Shown: positions 7,716-64,000 of the stretch, piece after piece
Layout: every line of letters begins with the position of its first letter
Numbering within the stretch: the first letter of the stretch is position 1
Assembly: GCF_001280425.1 (NCBI RefSeq)
Contig: NZ_LIUF01000003.1
Location: forward strand, 1-64,000
Source: Haloarcula rubripromontorii
Lineage (GTDB): Archaea; Halobacteriota; Halobacteria; Halobacteriales; Haloarculaceae
DNA: 64,000 nt
Reading direction: 5' to 3'
The notes under the pieces: generated by a model
Database searches by the model: none
What the model was told of the DNA's origin: nothing
What the model saw: only the letters and a program-made list of their open reading frames with translations
Program-made: the position numbers and the translations under genes

Positions 7716-8693
7716 ATGGTCCTCGTAGTGCTGGGTATCGATGCACTCGACCCGGAGCTAGTAGATTCGACGGCACATCCGAACTTGACGCTTGCCGACC
7801 ACCACGCCATCGAGACGATCAGGAGTGTCGAAGGTGGCCCCAGCACCCACGAACTCTGGCCAACGATTATTACGGGACTTAGGCCTCCGGAACATGGTAT
7901 CACGCTTGACGATGGTGTCGCTTGGGAGAACCCTATCCTCCGATTCGGTAGTGCAGCTGCTGACTACCTTCTCCCGTCGGAGCTACAGACGCGTCTCGGC
8001 GCCTGGCTACTGAACAATACCGAACAGGACGCGTTCCGGATCCCGGCAACCTACTACGAGGAGAACGATCTGACGACGGTGTTCGACGGACGGGAGGCGG
8101 CACCAATCGGCATCCCCAACTATGTGATCGACCCGGGCACAGAGGACCGCGAACACAGCCTCCGGCGGAACCTCGGCGATCTCTTCGAGCGTGATCTCGA
8201 AGCGAAAGGCGGTCACTCGTCGACGGATCCGGCGCTTTTTTACGAACAGTGCCTCGAAATGTCGATGGTTCGCCTTGTTCGCGCACGACGGGCGCTCAGA
8301 GGAGGACGACACGAACTGGTGTTTGCATACACGAGTGGACTTGACCTCATTGGCCACGTCGCGTACGAGCAGCCCTCACTGCAGAACCGTGCCTACGAGG
8401 AAATAGACGAGTTCGTCGGTGAGGTTCGTGACGACCTTGGAGACAACGACGAGCTGTTGCTCGTCAGCGATCACGGCCTGCAGGACGGCGTCCACACCGA
8501 CAAGGCGATGATTGCGGGGACCGACCCAGCCATGGTCGACGCAATCAAGAGCGTCGTCGATGTCCGGGCGGCTATCGAAGCCGAACTTGATGAGACGGAC
8601 CACACGTCGACGCCGCAGGTGACGGCGTCAGAAGACGCCGATCGGTCGGGCGCAGAAGTCAAAGAGCACCTCGAAGACCTCGGGTATATGTAA
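7716..8693 (+). CDS. Alkaline-phosphatase-superfamily phosphodiesterase-like protein
   Basis: This 325-residue protein opens with the superfamily metal motif (MVLVVLGIDALDPELV). It has a Thr-containing nucleophile loop (HELWPTIITGLRPPEHG) resembling type I phosphodiesterase/nucleotide pyrophosphatases. A second metal site (LLVSDHGLQDGVHT) follows. The C-terminus is HLEDLGYM, the same LxxLGY tail as the two sulfatase-like enzymes beside it. A longer reading frame exists upstream but overlaps the end of the GT4 gene with non-protein-like sequence, so I use the ATG at 7716. The following gene starts two bases after the stop, so the two are co-transcribed. A phospho- or nucleotide-ester hydrolase linked to glycan synthesis is inferred; the substrate is unknown. 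Confidence 0.7.
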   Translation: MVLVVLGIDALDPELVDSTAHPNLTLADHHAIETIRSVEGGPSTHELWPTIITGLRPPEHGITLDDGVAWENPILRFGSAAADYLLPSELQTRLGAWLLNNTEQDAFRIPATYYEENDLTTVFDGREAAPIGIPNYVIDPGTEDREHSLRRNLGDLFERDLEAKGGHSSTDPALFYEQCLEMSMVRLVRARRALRGGRHELVFAYTSGLDLIGHVAYEQPSLQNRAYEEIDEFVGEVRDDLGDNDELLLVSDHGLQDGVHTDKAMIAGTDPAMVDAIKSVVDVRAAIEAELDETDHTSTPQVTASEDADRSGAEVKEHLEDLGYM

Positions 8694-8695
8694 CC

Positions 8696-10150
8696 ATGTC
8701 GGACGATCCAAACGTCCTGCTCGTCATCCTCGACAGCGTACGGGCACAGAATCTCAGCGGCTATGGTCACGTCAACGAGACGACGCCGTTTTTGGACTCC
8801 TTCGCTACAGAGCGGGCGACGCTGTATGAACAGGCTCGAGCTCCTGGTTCGCGAAGCGTCACAAGCCACGCGAGCATTTTCTCCGGCCTACATGTCGAAG
8901 AACACGGTATTGTCTCGGCTGGGCGCCGACTGGACCCGTCGGCGTCGGTCTTCACGCAGCTGCGAGAAGACGGATACAGTACCGGCGTGTTTACCGAGAA
9001 CGATTGGCTGACGACTGTCGATGTCGGACTCCGCGACGGCTTCGACGAGATCGTCGGAGCACGGAACGTCCCGTTTCCAGTGGCAGTCAACCCCCATGAA
9101 TTCGTCTCGAACGAAGGCCGGGGACAGTATGTGGAGTTCCTCAAACTCGCGCTGGGCAGTGACGCACCGCTTCGGTCACTTGCAAACGGCGTGGCAACGA
9201 AAGTCCAGTCAGACTACAAGCAGTTCCTCCCGGATAGTGTCAGAGCATCAACGCCGGCAGATGTCTATGTGGACTCGCTGCTTGACTGGAGCGACCGACA
9301 GGACGGGCCGTGGGCAGCGTGTCTCAACCTGATGGATGCCCATATTCCGTACGAACCGATGCCGGAATACGACCGGTGGGGCGGCTCAGAGGCGTCGTCG
9401 TTGCAGGCCGCTTTCGAGGACCAGAAGTGGGATTTCAACGGCGGACATCGGCCGTGGTGGCAAAAGAAGGCGGTCGAATCGCTGTACGACGGCGCGATTC
9501 GCCAGATGGACGCGGAACTCGAACGGCTGGTTTCGGCACTTGAACGACGCGGTGAGCTCGACGACACCCTTCTCGTCATCACGAGCGATCACGGCGAGGG
9601 TTTCGGCGAAGAGAGCGACGTTCGCCCGGGCGTGCGGGTCGCCGAACACGGCGTCGCGATCCATGACTGTCTGCTCCATGTCCCGCTCATCGTGCGCTAT
9701 CCGGGCCAGACCGAGTCTCGCCAGGTCGACCGCCCCGCGTCGCTGGTCGAATTTCCACGAGTCGTGGACCGGGTGCGGGACGGCAACCAACAGCCGGCCG
9801 GATTCTGTCCCGACGGACCGGTCCTCGCTACTGCCGTCGGCCTCGATGAACCGCTGCAAGAGCGCGCCGGTGCGTACGTTGACGACCTGTCGCCGTGGAC
9901 CGCTACGTCGCGAGCAGTGTTCGAAGACGACGGTGAGGCGGTTGTCAAGTACTGTACCAACCAGGACCGCGCCGCCACAGTCGTCAGTCGCAACGCCCAG
10001 ACGTCGTACAAAGTTTCCGATGACGGTACCGAGCACGTCGACCGCGCGTTCGAATCGATAGCGGAACTCGACGTCAAGACGGCGGGCGAGGACTTCGACA
10101 ACCTCGACGACGGGACCTACCAACGTTTGGAAGACCTCGGCTACGTCTAA
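8696..10150 (+). CDS. Sulfatase-like hydrolase (alkaline phosphatase superfamily)
   Basis: This 484-residue paralogue of the enzyme encoded at 4916-6340 shares its N-terminal NVLLVILDSVRAQNLSGYG. The nucleophile region is RSVTSHASIFSG (Ser in the catalytic position, His for Arg). It also shares the motif ACLNLMDAHIPYEPMPEYD, the metal segment ITSDHGEGFGEES and the tail LEDLGYV. It follows the phosphodiesterase-like gene by two bases. The last four bases overlap the convergent TrmB-family gene. The pair flanking the GT4/phosphodiesterase genes suggests an old duplication and a shared substrate such as a sulfated or phosphorylated glycan. Whether Ser is converted to formylglycine or acts directly is not decidable here. 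Confidence 0.76.
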   Translation: MSDDPNVLLVILDSVRAQNLSGYGHVNETTPFLDSFATERATLYEQARAPGSRSVTSHASIFSGLHVEEHGIVSAGRRLDPSASVFTQLREDGYSTGVFTENDWLTTVDVGLRDGFDEIVGARNVPFPVAVNPHEFVSNEGRGQYVEFLKLALGSDAPLRSLANGVATKVQSDYKQFLPDSVRASTPADVYVDSLLDWSDRQDGPWAACLNLMDAHIPYEPMPEYDRWGGSEASSLQAAFEDQKWDFNGGHRPWWQKKAVESLYDGAIRQMDAELERLVSALERRGELDDTLLVITSDHGEGFGEESDVRPGVRVAEHGVAIHDCLLHVPLIVRYPGQTESRQVDRPASLVEFPRVVDRVRDGNQQPAGFCPDGPVLATAVGLDEPLQERAGAYVDDLSPWTATSRAVFEDDGEAVVKYCTNQDRAATVVSRNAQTSYKVSDDGTEHVDRAFESIAELDVKTAGEDFDNLDDGTYQRLEDLGYV

Positions 10151-56930: not shown

Positions 56931-58106
56931 TTACTGTTGCAGGTCGTACAGCCGCCGGAAAGCCGTCGGTGGGAACCGCGGCTCGACGCGGCTCGGCGGG
57001 CGTCCCTGCCCGTTGGTGACTGTCGCCTCGACACGGTCGACGACGCCGGATTCCGCCATTTCATAGAGGAATCGCTTGACGGTCCCGGCTGAGAGGTCGA
57101 CTGAGTCTACTGACGCAATCGCCTCTGTCGTTGCTGTTACCGAAGAGCGTTCGCCCTCCTCTAAGTCGATGAGTTCTCTGAGGACGGCCTGCCGGTTCGT
57201 CGGCAGAGAGAGGACGACGCCCAGCGACACACAGGGATCGGGAACTTCCCCGATGGCCGCGTCGACGTTGGCCTGTGTGATACGGTCCTGCCCTCGCTCC
57301 TCGGCCAACTCTGCGGCAATAAACAGCGCGGCAAGGGCATCGTGGGCGTTTCCGTCCGCCCAGTCGGCGATATGCCTCGCCAGACTGTGGTCGAGCCCCT
57401 GCTGAGCCAGCCCGTTCGAAGCTCTGGTCATCAACACGTCGACGAGCATCTGCCGTTGATAGCGGTCGATACTGATCGACTTAGCGGTGTACCGTGTCAG
57501 TTCAGTCGCCGACGGATCGTCCCGACCGATAGCCAGCCAGCTGACGTTGCTCGGTAAGCCAGCAAACAGCTCAACGAGGTCCGGTGCCTGGATACTCTCC
57601 GGCTCGCTGATGTGGTCGACTGCAATGACGATACCCGTGCGTTGCTCTCGAACTAGGTCGTGGAGCCGGGACTTGAGCGTTTCCGTCCCAATTCCGTGTT
57701 CCGGCACCGATTCGTCGACGAGTGCGTCCAAGATGGCGTGGTAGAACGCGAACTCGCTTGCGGTCTCTCTGGCGTTCACATAGACGAACGACGGAGAGGT
57801 CGGTGGCTGTGCACGGGTCGTCGTGTGGATGATCGCCTGTTGCTCCGTCGGGAGCTGTTCTAAGTTGGCGAAAAGCGCCGTGATAACCGCGGACTTCCCT
57901 GAACCACAGGGGCCGTACACGTACGCGTTCGGCGGAAGCTGCCCATCGAACACCGGATCGAGGTGGTCTAGCAGCCGTTCGAGGACCGGACCTCTGTCGG
58001 CCGGCTCCTCGATGTGGACGACCGGTGAGATGGACTCGTAATCCTGAATGAGCCGTGGCTCACCGTTCCGGCGTTGTCGGCGCTTGATTCTCGCTTCAAT
58101 GTCCAT
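56931..58106 (-). CDS. Orc1/Cdc6-family AAA+ ATPase
   Basis: This 391-residue protein has Walker A YGPCGSGKSAVI, a Walker B-like IVIAVDHISE, sensor-1-like AIGRDDPSA and a C-terminal winged helix (about 310-391, with AGTVKRFLYEMAESGVVDRVE). The N-terminal RRNGEPRLIQDYESISP is typical of archaeal Cdc6. Walker B has Asp-His instead of Asp-Glu, so ATP hydrolysis may be altered. It has no adjacent origin-like repeats and little intergenic space, so it may be an accessory paralogue rather than an initiator. It is convergent with the glucokinase gene. Confidence 0.8.
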   Translation of the reverse strand: MDIEARIKRRQRRNGEPRLIQDYESISPVVHIEEPADRGPVLERLLDHLDPVFDGQLPPNAYVYGPCGSGKSAVITALFANLEQLPTEQQAIIHTTTRAQPPTSPSFVYVNARETASEFAFYHAILDALVDESVPEHGIGTETLKSRLHDLVREQRTGIVIAVDHISEPESIQAPDLVELFAGLPSNVSWLAIGRDDPSATELTRYTAKSISIDRYQRQMLVDVLMTRASNGLAQQGLDHSLARHIADWADGNAHDALAALFIAAELAEERGQDRITQANVDAAIGEVPDPCVSLGVVLSLPTNRQAVLRELIDLEEGERSSVTATTEAIASVDSVDLSAGTVKRFLYEMAESGVVDRVEATVTNGQGRPPSRVEPRFPPTAFRRLYDLQQ

Positions 58107-58160: not shown

Positions 58161-59294
58161 TTAGAGCATGCCCAGGGCCGGGACCCAGGAGGTGCCGCCA
58201 AAGACGCCCACGACAGCGAGGATGAAGACGGTCAACGTCGCGACAACGATTGCCGCTGCGGGCGGGTCAAAGTGCGTGTCCGAGTGTGCGTAGAACACGC
58301 GCTGGACGACCTCTCCGATGAGTGCGCCGTAGGCACCGAACACGCCGGCAACGAGGATGGCCACGACGGCGGCCATCGTGCCCAGCTCCGGCGCACCGCC
58401 GAAGACGGCCAGCGCGGCCGTGCTTGCGGGCAGGGTCATGTGGTGGGTCACCGGAATCTTCTCAACGCCGAGGTTGAGGAACGTTAGGCTCGCTGCGGAG
58501 ATGCCGAAGCCGAGGAACGCACTACCGGTCTGGAGCGCGATCCAGCCACCGAGCAGGCCGGCGACGAGGCCGATCATCGCGACGTTCGCCCACCGGTACT
58601 GGTGGGGCAGCCACGGCTCGACAGCAAGGCGGTACGATTCCGCAACGCCGCCGTCAGTGGTCGCTTCACTACTGCCACCGTCCGTCGCCATCCGCTTCTC
58701 GCCGTTCTCGAACGGCGACATATCGAGAATGTTCCGACTGCCAGCGCCGATCAGCGGGTAGCCAAACGCGATGCGGTGGGCGACAGCCGACAGGACGACA
58801 CCCAGCGCAATCGGGTCCCACGGGAGCGCGAGCCCGCCAGACACCTGACGGACAACCATCCCGAAGATACCGAACAGCCCACCGACTGCGAGGATGTCCG
58901 GTCGCGTTCCGAGCGCGTAGGCGATATCTTTTGCTGGGTGGTAGTCGCCGTCGTCCGGCTCGTACATCCCGTCGCTCTTCGCGGCGTACGCGGCCGCTGC
59001 GGCACCACCCGCGAAGGAGATGTGTGGGCCGAAGACGGGACCGAACGCGATAGCACCGGTCACGCCGGTCGCCAGCCCATCAGCTCCGAGTTCTCCGAGT
59101 TGGCCGACGATACTGCCCCGGAGAATCGCGACTGCCTGGCCGGCGATGACCATGAAGCCGGTGAAACAGAACGCCGGGAGCGCGCCGACTGCTGCGCCGA
59201 AGGCACCGCCGGCGAAGGCGGCGATTATCAGCAGCAGGAGATCCGGAACCCCCATGCCGAAAACTGGAATCTGCAGGGGAAGGGTCTCTATCAT
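58161..59294 (-). CDS. Multi-pass membrane protein of the glycerol locus (GlpX-like)
   Basis: This 377-residue protein has about eight to nine Gly/Ala-rich membrane helices and an internal cytosolic loop rich in Ser/Thr/Glu (about 205-220). It is not an aquaporin (no NPA motifs). In haloarchaea a membrane protein encoded next to glycerol kinase has been proposed as a glycerol facilitator (called glpX); this gene occupies that place, three bases after the glpK stop. Glycerol transport is therefore inferred from context. Confidence 0.7.
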   Translation of the reverse strand: MIETLPLQIPVFGMGVPDLLLLIIAAFAGGAFGAAVGALPAFCFTGFMVIAGQAVAILRGSIVGQLGELGADGLATGVTGAIAFGPVFGPHISFAGGAAAAAYAAKSDGMYEPDDGDYHPAKDIAYALGTRPDILAVGGLFGIFGMVVRQVSGGLALPWDPIALGVVLSAVAHRIAFGYPLIGAGSRNILDMSPFENGEKRMATDGGSSEATTDGGVAESYRLAVEPWLPHQYRWANVAMIGLVAGLLGGWIALQTGSAFLGFGISAASLTFLNLGVEKIPVTHHMTLPASTAALAVFGGAPELGTMAAVVAILVAGVFGAYGALIGEVVQRVFYAHSDTHFDPPAAAIVVATLTVFILAVVGVFGGTSWVPALGML

Positions 59295-59297
59295 GGG

Positions 59298-60830
59298 TTA
59301 TTCCTCCTGTGCCCAGTCGCGGGAACGGTCGACGGCGTCGTCCCAGCGAGCGTACATCTTGTCTGCATCCTCGGCGTCCATCTCCGGCGAGAACTCCTCG
59401 TCGACCTGCCAGTTGTCCCGGAGTTCGTCGACGGTGTCCCAGTAGCCGACGGCGAGACCGGCCGCATAGGCCGACCCCAGCGCGGTGGTCTCGTCGACCT
59501 GCGGTCGAGCGATGTCGGTCTGGATGATGTCGGACTGGAGCTGACAGAGGAAGTTGTTCTTGACGGCACCACCGTCGACTCGTAGCGTCGTCATCTCGAC
59601 ACCGGAGTCTTCCTCCATCGCTTCCGCGAGGTCGCGGGTCTGGTACGCGATGGATTCGAGCGTCGCACGCACGATGTGTTCCTTTCGCGTGCCGCGAGTC
59701 ATCCCGACGATGGTCCCGCGTGCGCGGCCGTCCCAGTGCGGGGCACCGAGACCCGTGAAGGCCGGCACCATGTAGACCCCGTCGGTTGAGTCAACCGAGC
59801 GGGCCAGTTCTGCGGTCTGGGCGGCGTTGTTGATGAGGTCGACGTCTTCGAGCCACTCGATGGCCGCGCCGGCGATGAAGATGGAGCCTTCGAGCGCGTA
59901 CTGGACGGGCTCGCCGGACATCTGGAAGCCGACAGTCGTCAGCAGGCCGTTGTCCGAAGCGACCGCCTCGGAACCGGTGTTCATCAGGTAGAACGCGCCG
60001 GTGCCGTAGGTGTTCTTCGCGTCGCCCTTGTCGAAGCACGTCTGGCCGAACAGTGCGGCCTGCTGGTCACCCAGCGCGCCCGCAACGGGGACTTCCTCTT
60101 CGAGGAAGCCGTCCGCGTCGGTGTGCCCGTACAGACTCTCGTCGGAGGACGGACGGACTTCTGGAACCATGGACTTCGGAACGCCGAACTCTTCGAGAAG
60201 TTCATCGTCCCACTCCATGTCGTGGATGTTGTACAGCATCGTCCGCGATGCGTTCGAAACATCCGTGATGTGGTTGCCGGTGAGTTTGTAGATGAGCCAC
60301 GCGTCGATGGTCCCCATCAGGAGTTCGCCGTCCTCGGCGCGGTCGCGGAGGTCGGCACCGCGTGAGCTCTGCATCTTGAGCGGTTCCGCGTTGTCGAGGA
60401 TCCACTCGGTCTTGGTCGCCGAGAAGTAGGCGTCACATTCGAGGCCGGTCTTGCCCCGAATCCACTCGACCTTGTCCTCCTCCTGGATTTCCTCGACGCG
60501 GTCGGTGGTTCGGCGGTCCTGCCAGACCAGCGCGTTGTGGACCGGTTTGCCGGTCTCCTTGTCCCAGACGATCGTCGTCTCACGCTGGTTCGTGATGCCG
60601 AGCGCTTCGAGCTGTTCGGCACCGACGCCCGCGTCCGCCAGCCCTTTCGTCACGACTTCCTGCGTGTTCTCCCAGATTTCGACGGGGTCGTGCTCGACCC
60701 AGCCGGGCTCCGGATAGATCTGTTCGTGCTTCTCGTAGGCGTTCGCAACGACCTGGCCGCTGTGGTCGAATACCATGAAGCGGGTGCCGGTCGTTCCCTG
60801 GTCGATCGCGCCAACGTATGTGTCTGCCAT
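59298..60830 (-). CDS. glpK: Glycerol kinase
   Basis: This 510-residue FGGY kinase has the ATP/substrate start YVGAIDQGTTGTRFMVFD, the glycerol-binding EHDPVEIWENT and ALGITNQRETTIVWDK. DQQAALFGQ follows, and the two signature regions include GDAKNTYGTGAFYLMNTG and VDGGAVKNNFLCQLQSDI. It phosphorylates glycerol to sn-glycerol-3-phosphate, a major carbon source in hypersaline waters. The promoter upstream has a TATA box held inside a perfect inverted repeat. It is co-directional with the GlpX-like gene and lies next to the receptor gene with the UgpB-like domain. Confidence 0.96.
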   Translation of the reverse strand: MADTYVGAIDQGTTGTRFMVFDHSGQVVANAYEKHEQIYPEPGWVEHDPVEIWENTQEVVTKGLADAGVGAEQLEALGITNQRETTIVWDKETGKPVHNALVWQDRRTTDRVEEIQEEDKVEWIRGKTGLECDAYFSATKTEWILDNAEPLKMQSSRGADLRDRAEDGELLMGTIDAWLIYKLTGNHITDVSNASRTMLYNIHDMEWDDELLEEFGVPKSMVPEVRPSSDESLYGHTDADGFLEEEVPVAGALGDQQAALFGQTCFDKGDAKNTYGTGAFYLMNTGSEAVASDNGLLTTVGFQMSGEPVQYALEGSIFIAGAAIEWLEDVDLINNAAQTAELARSVDSTDGVYMVPAFTGLGAPHWDGRARGTIVGMTRGTRKEHIVRATLESIAYQTRDLAEAMEEDSGVEMTTLRVDGGAVKNNFLCQLQSDIIQTDIARPQVDETTALGSAYAAGLAVGYWDTVDELRDNWQVDEEFSPEMDAEDADKMYARWDDAVDRSRDWAQEE

Positions 60831-60958: not shown

Positions 60959-63496
60959 TTACCGGCCTGAATTGTACCGCTCAAGCTGCTTTGTGACCTG
61001 TGTGTCGAGTCGGTCAAGTGCAGACGGGACTGAATCAGGCCCGTCCATACTGTCGACGGCATCTTCGATGATTGTTCGAACCGTATCGAACGGCCCGATC
61101 TGTGCGCCCCGCGTTGCGGTGGTATCGCGCGTCTCCATGAGCTGGTCGAACGCCGTTCTGTAGTGGGGGTTCCGCTCGAACCAGTCATCGGCCCGAAGCC
61201 GTGGAATCGTCTCTTCGTGGACCGGGAAATAGCCGGTTTCCTGGTGCCACCGTCGCTGCTGGGCCGGTTCGGTAAGCCAGGTGAGGAACTCCCCGACAGC
61301 GTCGTGTACGGCTTCGGAAACTGCATCGCCGACCCAGAGGGATGCGCCGCCGACGAGTACACCGGTCCGGTCGTCGAGCACGGGGAGCTGGCTGGTGCCG
61401 ACATCGAAGTCGGCGCTGCGTTCGATACTGTTCAGCGACGACGTCGAGCCGATGAGCATCGCGGCGTTCTCTTCGGCAAAGTGGGTCCGAGCCGCCCCTC
61501 TGGCTTCGATTCCGGGGTCGTGGTACAGTCCGTCCGCTTCGAGGCTCTGCCACCACTCGAATAAGTCGTGGGCGAACTCCCCGTCGAGATAGCTTTCTGT
61601 CGGCGACCCGGACCGTCCGTTGTTCTCGTCTACGAGGAGCTGGTCAGCTTCGGCAAACCACTGTTCGACGAACCACGAGTAGTTCGCGAACGTGATACCA
61701 GTGTCAACGCCACCGCGGTCGACGAGCGTCTCAGCCGCGCTCCGAACGTCAGCGAGGGTTTCCGGCGGCGAACTGGGATCGAGCCCAGCCTGTCTAAACG
61801 CGTCCCGGTTATACGCCATCACCGGGTTCGACGCATTAAACGGCAGCGAGTGGAGCGTCCCGTCGAAACGGTAGTAGTTCGTCACCGGGTCGAGCAGCGC
61901 ATCGATGTGGCCGCTCGGGAGCAGTTCTTCGACCGGGGTGAAATGACCACTGTCGCGCGCACGCGTGGTGCCAATCTCGAATATCTGTGCGATTGCCGGT
62001 GGGTTACCGTTTTCAGCGGCGTTCAGCGTCGCATCGAGGGTCCCGCGATAGCTCCCTTTCGACCGCAGCGTGAGACTGATCCCGTCGGCCTGTGATTCGA
62101 ACTCGCGGACGAGGTCTTCCAGCAGTAACGCCTTCTCGCCGCCCATCGCGTGCCAGAATTCGACGACAGTTCCGTCCGTGCTCGCCGCCGCCGAACCTGT
62201 CGCCAGTTCGAAGGACTCCAGCGATGCCTCCAGCGATTCAGCTCGCTCGGTAAGCGTGGAAACTCGCGTCGAGACCTCCGCAAGTTCCGTTGTCTGGTCC
62301 GCTGCGGCGTCGGCGGCGACAGCCGCCTCTTCGGCTGTCCGGGCGCTGATGTCCTCGACATCGTCGACCATCGACACGACTTCTTGCGTGGAATCGGCCT
62401 GCGTGTCCGTCGCATCGTCAATTTCCTGGACGCTCGAATCGACCTCCTCGACCATCGAGACGACGGAATCCAGTTCATCAAGCGCGCTGGCGACTGACGA
62501 GCGGGTGTCCTCGACACTCTCCCGGGTATCGTACATCTCTGCAACTGTCGCGTCAGCCTGTTCGTGGACCTCCTGGATAGAGGCTGCAATCTCGTCAGTC
62601 GCTTCCTTCGTCTCCGTTGCGAGCGATTTGACCTCCTCAGCCACGACGGCGAACCCGTCGCCGGATTCCCCTGCTCGGGCCGCTTCGATGTTGGCGTTCA
62701 GTGCCAGCATGTTGGTCTGGTCCGCAACGTCGGTGATGAAGCCCACAATCTCCTCGATGTCAGACAGCAGGTCGTTCAGTTGTTCGACCTTGTCGACGGT
62801 CGATTCGGCGTTGTCGGTCAATCGGTCGAGCGTCGTCATCGCAGAGGACGCCGACTCTAGTGCGGATTCACCCCGGGCGCTGGCTTCGCTTGAGGTGTCT
62901 GCAACCTCGTTTGCGGCGCTCGCTATCTCCTCGATCGTCGCCGAGAGGTTCCGCATCTCGTCGGAGATCGACTGTATCTCGTCGCGCTGCTCGTCCGAAC
63001 CGGCCGAAATCTCGCCGACAGCACCGCTCACGTCTCGGCTGGCGGACTTGACCGATCCGAGACGAGTGTCGACCTGTTCCGTTGCGGCGGTCACCTGTTC
63101 GCTGAACGATGCCATCCGGTCGACAGTATCAGTCCATTCCCGGAGCAGTTGCTCGTATGCCGCGTACAGCGGCTCAGCTGCCTCTGCTGGTGGCTGTCCG
63201 GGTTTTGCAGTCAGGTCGCCGTTAGCGTTCGCTTCGACAACAGACGTGAGACGGTCGACAGTGGTTTCGAGCGCTTGGCGGTCTGCCCGCTCCTGTTCGA
63301 GTTCCGCCGCCAGCTGCTCACACTGTGCTTTCAGTTCCGCCCGTGAGGGGTCGGCTCCCGGTTCCTGTTCCGGGGCATTTGCCGACGGCGGTTCGGCCTC
63401 CGACTTGTTCTCGTCCCGCTCCTCGGTGACACCGCCGTCGGTCCGTTCTTCGCCCGGAGGGTCGTCGCCTGAATCAAGTGGGTTCCATTTACTCAT
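60959..63496 (-). CDS. Soluble chemoreceptor fused to a UgpB-like solute-binding domain
   Basis: This 845-residue protein has no membrane segment or signal peptide. Residues 1-60 are acidic low complexity, 60-100 a coiled helix and about 88-130 HAMP-like ([10 protein letters not shown]). A complete chemoreceptor hairpin covers about 130-430 with the tip [19 protein letters not shown] near 255-275. The C-terminal 400 residues (about 443-845) form a family 1 solute-binding domain resembling UgpB, the glycerol-3-phosphate binder ([38 protein letters not shown]). Such domains are normally secreted; here the lack of export makes an internal sensor likely. It lies between glpK and glpA. The ATG ending at 63496 is preferred over one ten codons upstream. 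Confidence 0.88.
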
Positions 63497-63845
63497 TGTC
63501 GCTCCCGTTGGCCGAACGGCCAACACACTCTCGGAAATAGTCCACTATCAAAATATATAATAGTTACTGTCGAACCGGTATGAGTGATAACTACTGTTTG
63601 AGAACGAAAGAATAGCTGATATACTGTATTTGAACTCATATACATTAACTATATCAATATAAGAGCCATATTTGTGAAAATATATCCAAGTAATTCACTC
63701 AAAGGACAGTGAGAATTACGTGCCAATAGTCAACAATTAACATCTGGAGTTTCCGGTATTCCTCATGATTACATAGAAAATTTACTACCCGAACACCAGC
63801 AACGGTAAAGTGAAGTGTATGCGCTCCAAACCCACGGAAAGATAG
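63497..63845. other. AT-rich divergent promoter region, receptor and glpA
   Basis: About 350 bases, AT-rich between 63550 and 63780. A minus-strand TATA candidate (AAATATATAATAG, 63551-63563) serves the receptor gene. TAGTTA (63561-63566) pairs with TAACTA (63588-63593). The plus-strand glpA promoter is not clear. No ORF is convincing. Confidence 0.45.
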
Positions 63846-64000
63846 ATGGGACCGACACCACACATCGCCGTCATCGGTGGCGGCTCGACTGGGGCAGGCA
63901 TCGCGCGGGACCTCGCGATGCGCGGGCTCGACGTAACCCTCGTAGAACAGGGGAATCTAACCCACGGGACCACCGGTCGAATGCACGGGCTGCTCCATAG
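63846..64000 (+). CDS. glpA: Anaerobic-type glycerol-3-phosphate dehydrogenase subunit A (5' part)
   Basis: The window ends inside this gene. The visible 51 codons encode [30 protein letters not shown], a FAD-binding Rossmann start with the Gly-x-Gly-x-x-Gly pattern, followed by [12 protein letters not shown], typical of GlpA/GlpD enzymes. Together with glpK it turns glycerol into dihydroxyacetone phosphate. It is divergent from the receptor-fusion gene. In haloarchaea glpABC are usually followed by each other in an operon, which cannot be checked here. Confidence 0.9.

Follow-up and report, generated by a model that had tools for sequence, protein, structure and literature searches.

Introduction

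Glycerol is a main carbon source in brines. The model haloarchaeon H. volcanii prefers it over glucose (PMC12366361). In the 64,000-nucleotide stretch of the Haloarcula rubripromontorii genome analyzed here (positions 1 to 64,000 of contig NZ_LIUF01000003.1, hereafter the window), a gene situated between two glycerol genes, glpK and glpA, encodes a chemoreceptor whose C-terminal part resembles UgpB, the binding protein of an importer. What does such a chemoreceptor sense, and on which side of the membrane does it do so? The original prediction, made from the bare sequence, proposed that it may sense sn-glycerol-3-phosphate (G3P) or a related metabolite inside the cell; a glycerophosphodiester is also possible. 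The observations summarized below favor, as the probable answer, a cytoplasmic receptor for glycerol phosphate (G3P and/or G1P) that couples taxis to glycerol catabolism; here we infer what the receptor binds, in which direction the response goes, and that the output is taxis.

The Fusion Gene and Its Promoter

The gene lies at positions 60959–63496 of the reverse strand and encodes 845 amino acids from an ATG at 63496, exactly at the coordinates originally predicted, and an in-frame GTG provides an alternative start that would add 10 residues. Its position between glpK and glpA had also been predicted correctly: glpK, which encodes glycerol kinase (59298–60830, reverse strand; 724 bits to TIGR01311), is the next gene downstream, and glpA starts divergently at 63847 on the forward strand and reaches the end of the window at 64000, with glpA, glpB, and glpC running on past it (locus L121). 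On a single chain, the protein matches the Pfam models MCPsignal (residues 219–383; 3e-41, 141.5 bits against a curated cut-off of 34.6) and SBP_bac_8 (residues 462–780; 1.5e-33), in agreement with the predicted joining of an intact-tip chemoreceptor hairpin to a UgpB-like part. The fusion is not a product of chance, because it is found again and again, in dozens of species.

A conserved TATA-like element precedes the fusion gene (63550–63562, reverse strand, in an alignment of 8 relatives), and glpK has a conserved TATA-like element of its own about 80 bases 5' of its start; glpK therefore probably has its own promoter. Such conserved elements constitute the promoter evidence used here, a sigma-70 promoter scan being inapplicable to archaea. 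Between the TATA element of the fusion gene and its start codon lies a perfect palindrome, GTTGGCCGAACGGCCAAC (63507–63524, as read on the forward strand), an 18-base inverted repeat that only the closest Haloarcula species share.

The Chemoreceptor Half

The hairpin comprises residues ~121–429 (62210–63136, reverse strand), with a tip motif that begins at residue 267 and arms of ~154 residues on each side of the tip. Because matches to the SBP domain took up the Foldseek list, the hairpin was assessed from its sequence: residues 135–423 match 2ch7, the cytoplasmic domain of a bacterial chemoreceptor (E = 1e-20). The tip is intact, and columns 258–293, which include the stretch expected to contact CheA and CheW, are near-invariant in 44 homologues. 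Sites predicted by a match to the methylation-type consensus are located at residues 129–138 and 185–194, the latter being conserved. The length of the arms is compatible with a long receptor of the 44-heptad type, a class to which the protein may belong.

The hairpin is preceded by a predicted coiled coil with a HAMP-like motif, GDLT (residues 51–121; 63134–63346, reverse strand). The motif itself, at residues 93–96, is conserved, and a Pfam search of the fusion protein found no HAMP domain. In the AlphaFold model, a disordered N-terminus (residues 1–49), a long helical hairpin, and a short disordered linker (residues ~428–442) can be recognized. The genome has a single CheA match and archaellin genes; among its 15 chemoreceptor loci, only the fusion at 60959–63496 coincides with an SBP_bac_8 match.

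Cellular Location

As had been predicted, neither a signal peptide nor a membrane helix was found in the window's protein; the Kyte–Doolittle scan detected no hydrophobic segment, with no 19-residue window above 1.5. Lacking a membrane helix and having an SBP fold at its C-terminal end (residues 443–845), the protein has the features of a class V chemoreceptor. Because the tip of the hairpin must reach CheA in the cytoplasm, and because the UgpB-type domain is C-terminal to the hairpin, this domain is placed in the cytoplasm. The exported haloarchaeal UgpBs that were retrieved have twin-arginine-like (Tat-like) N-termini, mostly together with a lipobox, and the free UgpBs examined adjoin ugpA-ugpE-ugpC. 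No ugpAEC genes were found beside any of the fusions examined; in the window's genome, a search at E ≤ 1e-20 yielded no free UgpB, and matches to UgpA do not exceed 34% identity. Relatives of UgpB are exported, and one might suppose from this that the binding domain acts extracellularly like an ordinary UgpB, but a protein that has no signal peptide, membrane helix, or adjacent ugpAEC, and whose binding domain follows the hairpin on CheA's side of the membrane, makes this scarcely credible.

In one sub-clade belonging to another family (loci L124, L125, L130, and L131), the only sub-clade of this kind, the protein has one hydrophobic N-terminal segment, the presence of which depends on the choice of start codon. 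This segment is probably membrane-spanning, and it would anchor the protein with the binding domain staying inside.

Fold and Binding Pocket of the UgpB-type Domain

The likeness of some 400 C-terminal residues to UgpB, together with structure prediction and a profile search of residues 443–845 as the means to check it, was a part of the original prediction, and both lines of evidence support it. Besides the SBP match mentioned above, the UgpB-type domain (residues 443–845; 60962–62170, reverse strand) is modeled as a complete UgpB fold with a pLDDT of ~92. The top fold matches are UgpB entries, with the E. coli protein ranking first (6x84, Z = 53.2; 4aq4, Z = 47.5; 9lff, Z = 46.9), and the superposition with 6x84 has an rmsd of 1.5 over 402 residues. 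The best sequence match of residues ~449–838 is likewise a UgpB, that of E. coli (4aq4, E = 3.5e-50), and the NCBIfam UgpB model NF008211 gives 200 bits, under its equivalog cut-off of 411.

As seen in UgpB crystals containing G1P or G3P (Phaeobacter numbering), the phosphate is held by Tyr64, Ser143, Ser266, and Tyr342, the glycerol hydroxyls are contacted by Glu88, Gly303, and Arg393, and Trp188 and Trp191 form a clamp (PMC12718374). The equivalents in the window's protein are Y483, S556, S684, and Y756 for the phosphate and E507, G717, and R807 for the hydroxyls. Of the clamp, Trp191 corresponds to W608, and the position of Trp188 (W192 in the E. coli precursor) is occupied by N605. The seven contact residues and the second clamp Trp are invariant in 57/57 intact fusions. 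When the invariant columns are taken as background, the finding of all seven polar or glycine contacts among the invariant columns identical to E. coli has a P of ~5e-7. Among 15 exported haloarchaeal UgpBs, in contrast, the Glu is kept in only six and the Arg in seven; in other words, the fusions keep the glycerol-phosphate signature more strictly. The first clamp position is Asn in 52 of the 57 intact fusions and Thr in the other five. Since Asn at this position is also seen in exported haloarchaeal UgpBs, the replacement is not a fusion-specific trait; it could lower the affinity towards intracellular concentrations, or it could enlarge the pocket.

A score beneath the UgpB equivalog cut-off would suit a UgpB relic that binds nothing or has a structural role only. 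That reading is very improbable, however, given a full fold modeled at high confidence and a pocket that is invariant in fusions whose overall identity falls to 44%.

The exported UgpB-like proteins of haloarchaea include a second class (loci L149–L153, L160, and L161) that is without the hydroxyl-holding Glu and Arg, the loss of which suggests a different substrate.

Distribution and Origin of the Fusion

As judged from open-frame lengths, at least 66 of the 391 sampled Halobacteria genomes carry the fusion. Fusions were told from free UgpBs by adjacent in-frame matches to a chemoreceptor and an SBP. It is distributed across the Haloarculaceae (Haloarcula amylolytica, japonica, vallismortis, sebkhae, argentinensis, mannanilytica, and pellucida, as well as Halomicroarcula rubra and Halomicrobium katesii) and is also present in two other families of Halobacteria, including Halalkalirubrum salinum. 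A search of 295 genomes of the phylum at E ≤ 1e-25 found no fusion outside the Halobacteria, and in the genome scan the UgpB-like matches from bacteria covered the SBP part alone; both samples are limited.

Several candidates were rejected or set apart. Frames of ~750–800 amino acids around more distant UgpBs in five genomes (G307, G149, G426, G299, and G287) resembled fusions, but these are ordinary exported UgpBs that have a long open frame upstream and ugpAEC after them. The long C-terminal extension behind a related hairpin at L060 reads as an acidic low-complexity tail. In one Haloarcula genome (G010, locus L118, ~8350–9800), the fusion frame is broken by a frameshift, which marks either a pseudogene or an assembly error.

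In the tree of the UgpB halves, a single branch parts 45 fused domains from 13 exported haloarchaeal UgpBs, with a low support of 33; in the tree of the receptor halves, a branch with a support of 97 sets the 44 halves from fusions apart. The simplest reading compatible with these trees, strongly supported in the receptor half only, would be a single ancient fusion that has been inherited as a unit.

Genomic Context and the Identity of the Ligand

In Haloarcula and its close relatives, the fusion lies between a divergent glpABC and a same-strand glpK-glpX-orc-like group. The gene called glpX here (58161–59294, reverse strand) recurs beside glpK and encodes a protein with multiple membrane helices and no Pfam or NCBIfam match, which is a candidate glycerol channel. 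Next to it, an Orc1/Cdc6-like AAA ATPase (56931–58106, reverse strand) is found beside glp genes at 19 of the loci fetched, one of them in a second family (L125), and is possibly a regulator instead of a replication protein. The L125 locus (G191:C14:210000–229900), whose genes were named by reading the translated sequences, contains glpCBA, then glpK-glpX-orc-like-fusion-ptsH-ptsI, and then dhaMLK in the opposite direction.

The original prediction had also suggested looking for the same fusion beside glp genes in other haloarchaea, and it does occur there: a glpK or glpA gene is no more than 10 kb away for 18 of the 45 non-redundant fusions, which come from several lineages and require five label changes on the tree. 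The remaining 27 are away from glp genes, and no common neighbor was recognized among them. GlpK is present in 65 of the 66 genomes with the fusion versus 275 of the 325 without it, these being per-genome counts that ignore kinship.

The location of the fusion among metabolic genes, with ptsH-ptsI in L125, would also be expected of a chemoreceptor-like sensor with a regulatory output (for example, glp expression, PTS activity, or surface behavior) instead of swimming. We consider this doubtful, because the receptor has an obvious partner in the one CheA that the genome search found, the hairpin tip is intact and near-invariant, and archaellin genes are present.

The strongest rival retains the receptor and changes its ligand to G1P, or to a glycerophosphodiester from lipid turnover, so that the protein would report lipid or phosphate status and not glycerol catabolism. 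UgpB proteins discriminate weakly or not at all between G1P and G3P, and larger-pocket relatives that bind GPC or dinucleotides are described as predating the Trp pair (PMC12718374), one member of which is missing in the fusion; the ligand assignment is weakened for these reasons. Specificity for catabolic G3P is also problematic, because archaea use G1P for lipids, their cytoplasm should always hold it, and UgpB binds both phosphates similarly. It should be added that the majority of the fusions are away from glp genes. Objections to this rival are that the glp/dha synteny recurs in separate lineages and that the fusions never vary in the second clamp Trp or in the contacts to the glycerol hydroxyls, and we regard it as possible but rather unlikely.

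A Proposed Mechanism

A cytoplasmic glycerol-phosphate receptor tied to glycerol catabolism, which is the reading that we prefer, might operate as follows. After glycerol has entered the cell, GlpK would convert it to sn-glycerol-3-phosphate, and the UgpB-type Venus-flytrap at the base of the hairpin would shut on glycerol phosphate (G3P, and possibly G1P too). Closure would make the receptor bundle pack differently and thereby change how active the single CheA is, and through CheA the switching of the archaellum. Swimming would thus be steered by the flux through glycerol catabolism, not by external glycerol.

We give roughly even chances to the wider proposal that the fusions are a dedicated haloarchaeal family, in which the binding protein of an importer was internalized via one fusion, reads the product of GlpK, and provides glycerol taxis by catabolic flux. 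If this is true, the cell steers by the amount of glycerol actually metabolized, and a binding-protein fold would be employed as an intracellular sensor of a metabolite, presumably glycerol phosphate. The conserved pocket and the linkage to the glp cluster make metabolism-dependent taxis testable.

Comparison with Known Systems

The UgpBs of E. coli and Phaeobacter resemble the fusion's domain in fold (Z 47–53), at 27%–31% identity, and in the phosphate contacts, the glycerol-hydroxyl contacts, and the second clamp Trp. However, they are exported and are part of the UgpBAEC2 importer, whereas the fusion is unexported, joined to a chemoreceptor, and without a permease partner; the fusion also differs in the Asn at its first clamp position and in its score under the UgpB equivalog cut-off.

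TlpD, the C-terminal sensor domain of which is CZB, is a cytoplasmic chemoreceptor like the fusion, but its sensor domain and its signal are unrelated. In H. pylori, TlpD is a receptor for bleach (PMC6715182). Six of the 18 transducers of H. salinarum are without membrane helices, and Car (Htr11) senses arginine (PMC3579733). Set against the fusion by description, Car is likewise a soluble haloarchaeal transducer for an intracellular catabolic substrate, with a different ligand. In the BasB/BasT and CosB/CosT systems of the same organism (PMC3579733), a nutrient signal also reaches the transducer via a binding protein, but the putative periplasmic binding protein is separate and the transducer is a membrane protein, whereas in the fusion the two are intracellular and covalently joined.

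The literature searched describes no glycerol or glycerol-phosphate receptor in archaea, and we found in it no description of the fusion family, its pocket, or its linkage to the glycerol cluster. In the text of a 2022 archaeal census (PMC9680633), SBP_bac is among the ligand-binding families of chemoreceptors, and C-terminal domains are reported in cytoplasmic receptors; the class V cytoplasmic chemoreceptors with a C-terminal ligand-binding domain (LBD) are of the same broad architectural class as the fusion, and the text mentions no glycerol or solute, genomic context, or proposed ligand for the SBP_bac LBDs. SBP_bac receptors are already known, and, as far as the census text goes, what appears new is a UgpB-type fusion that combines a glycerol-phosphate pocket with linkage to the glp genes.
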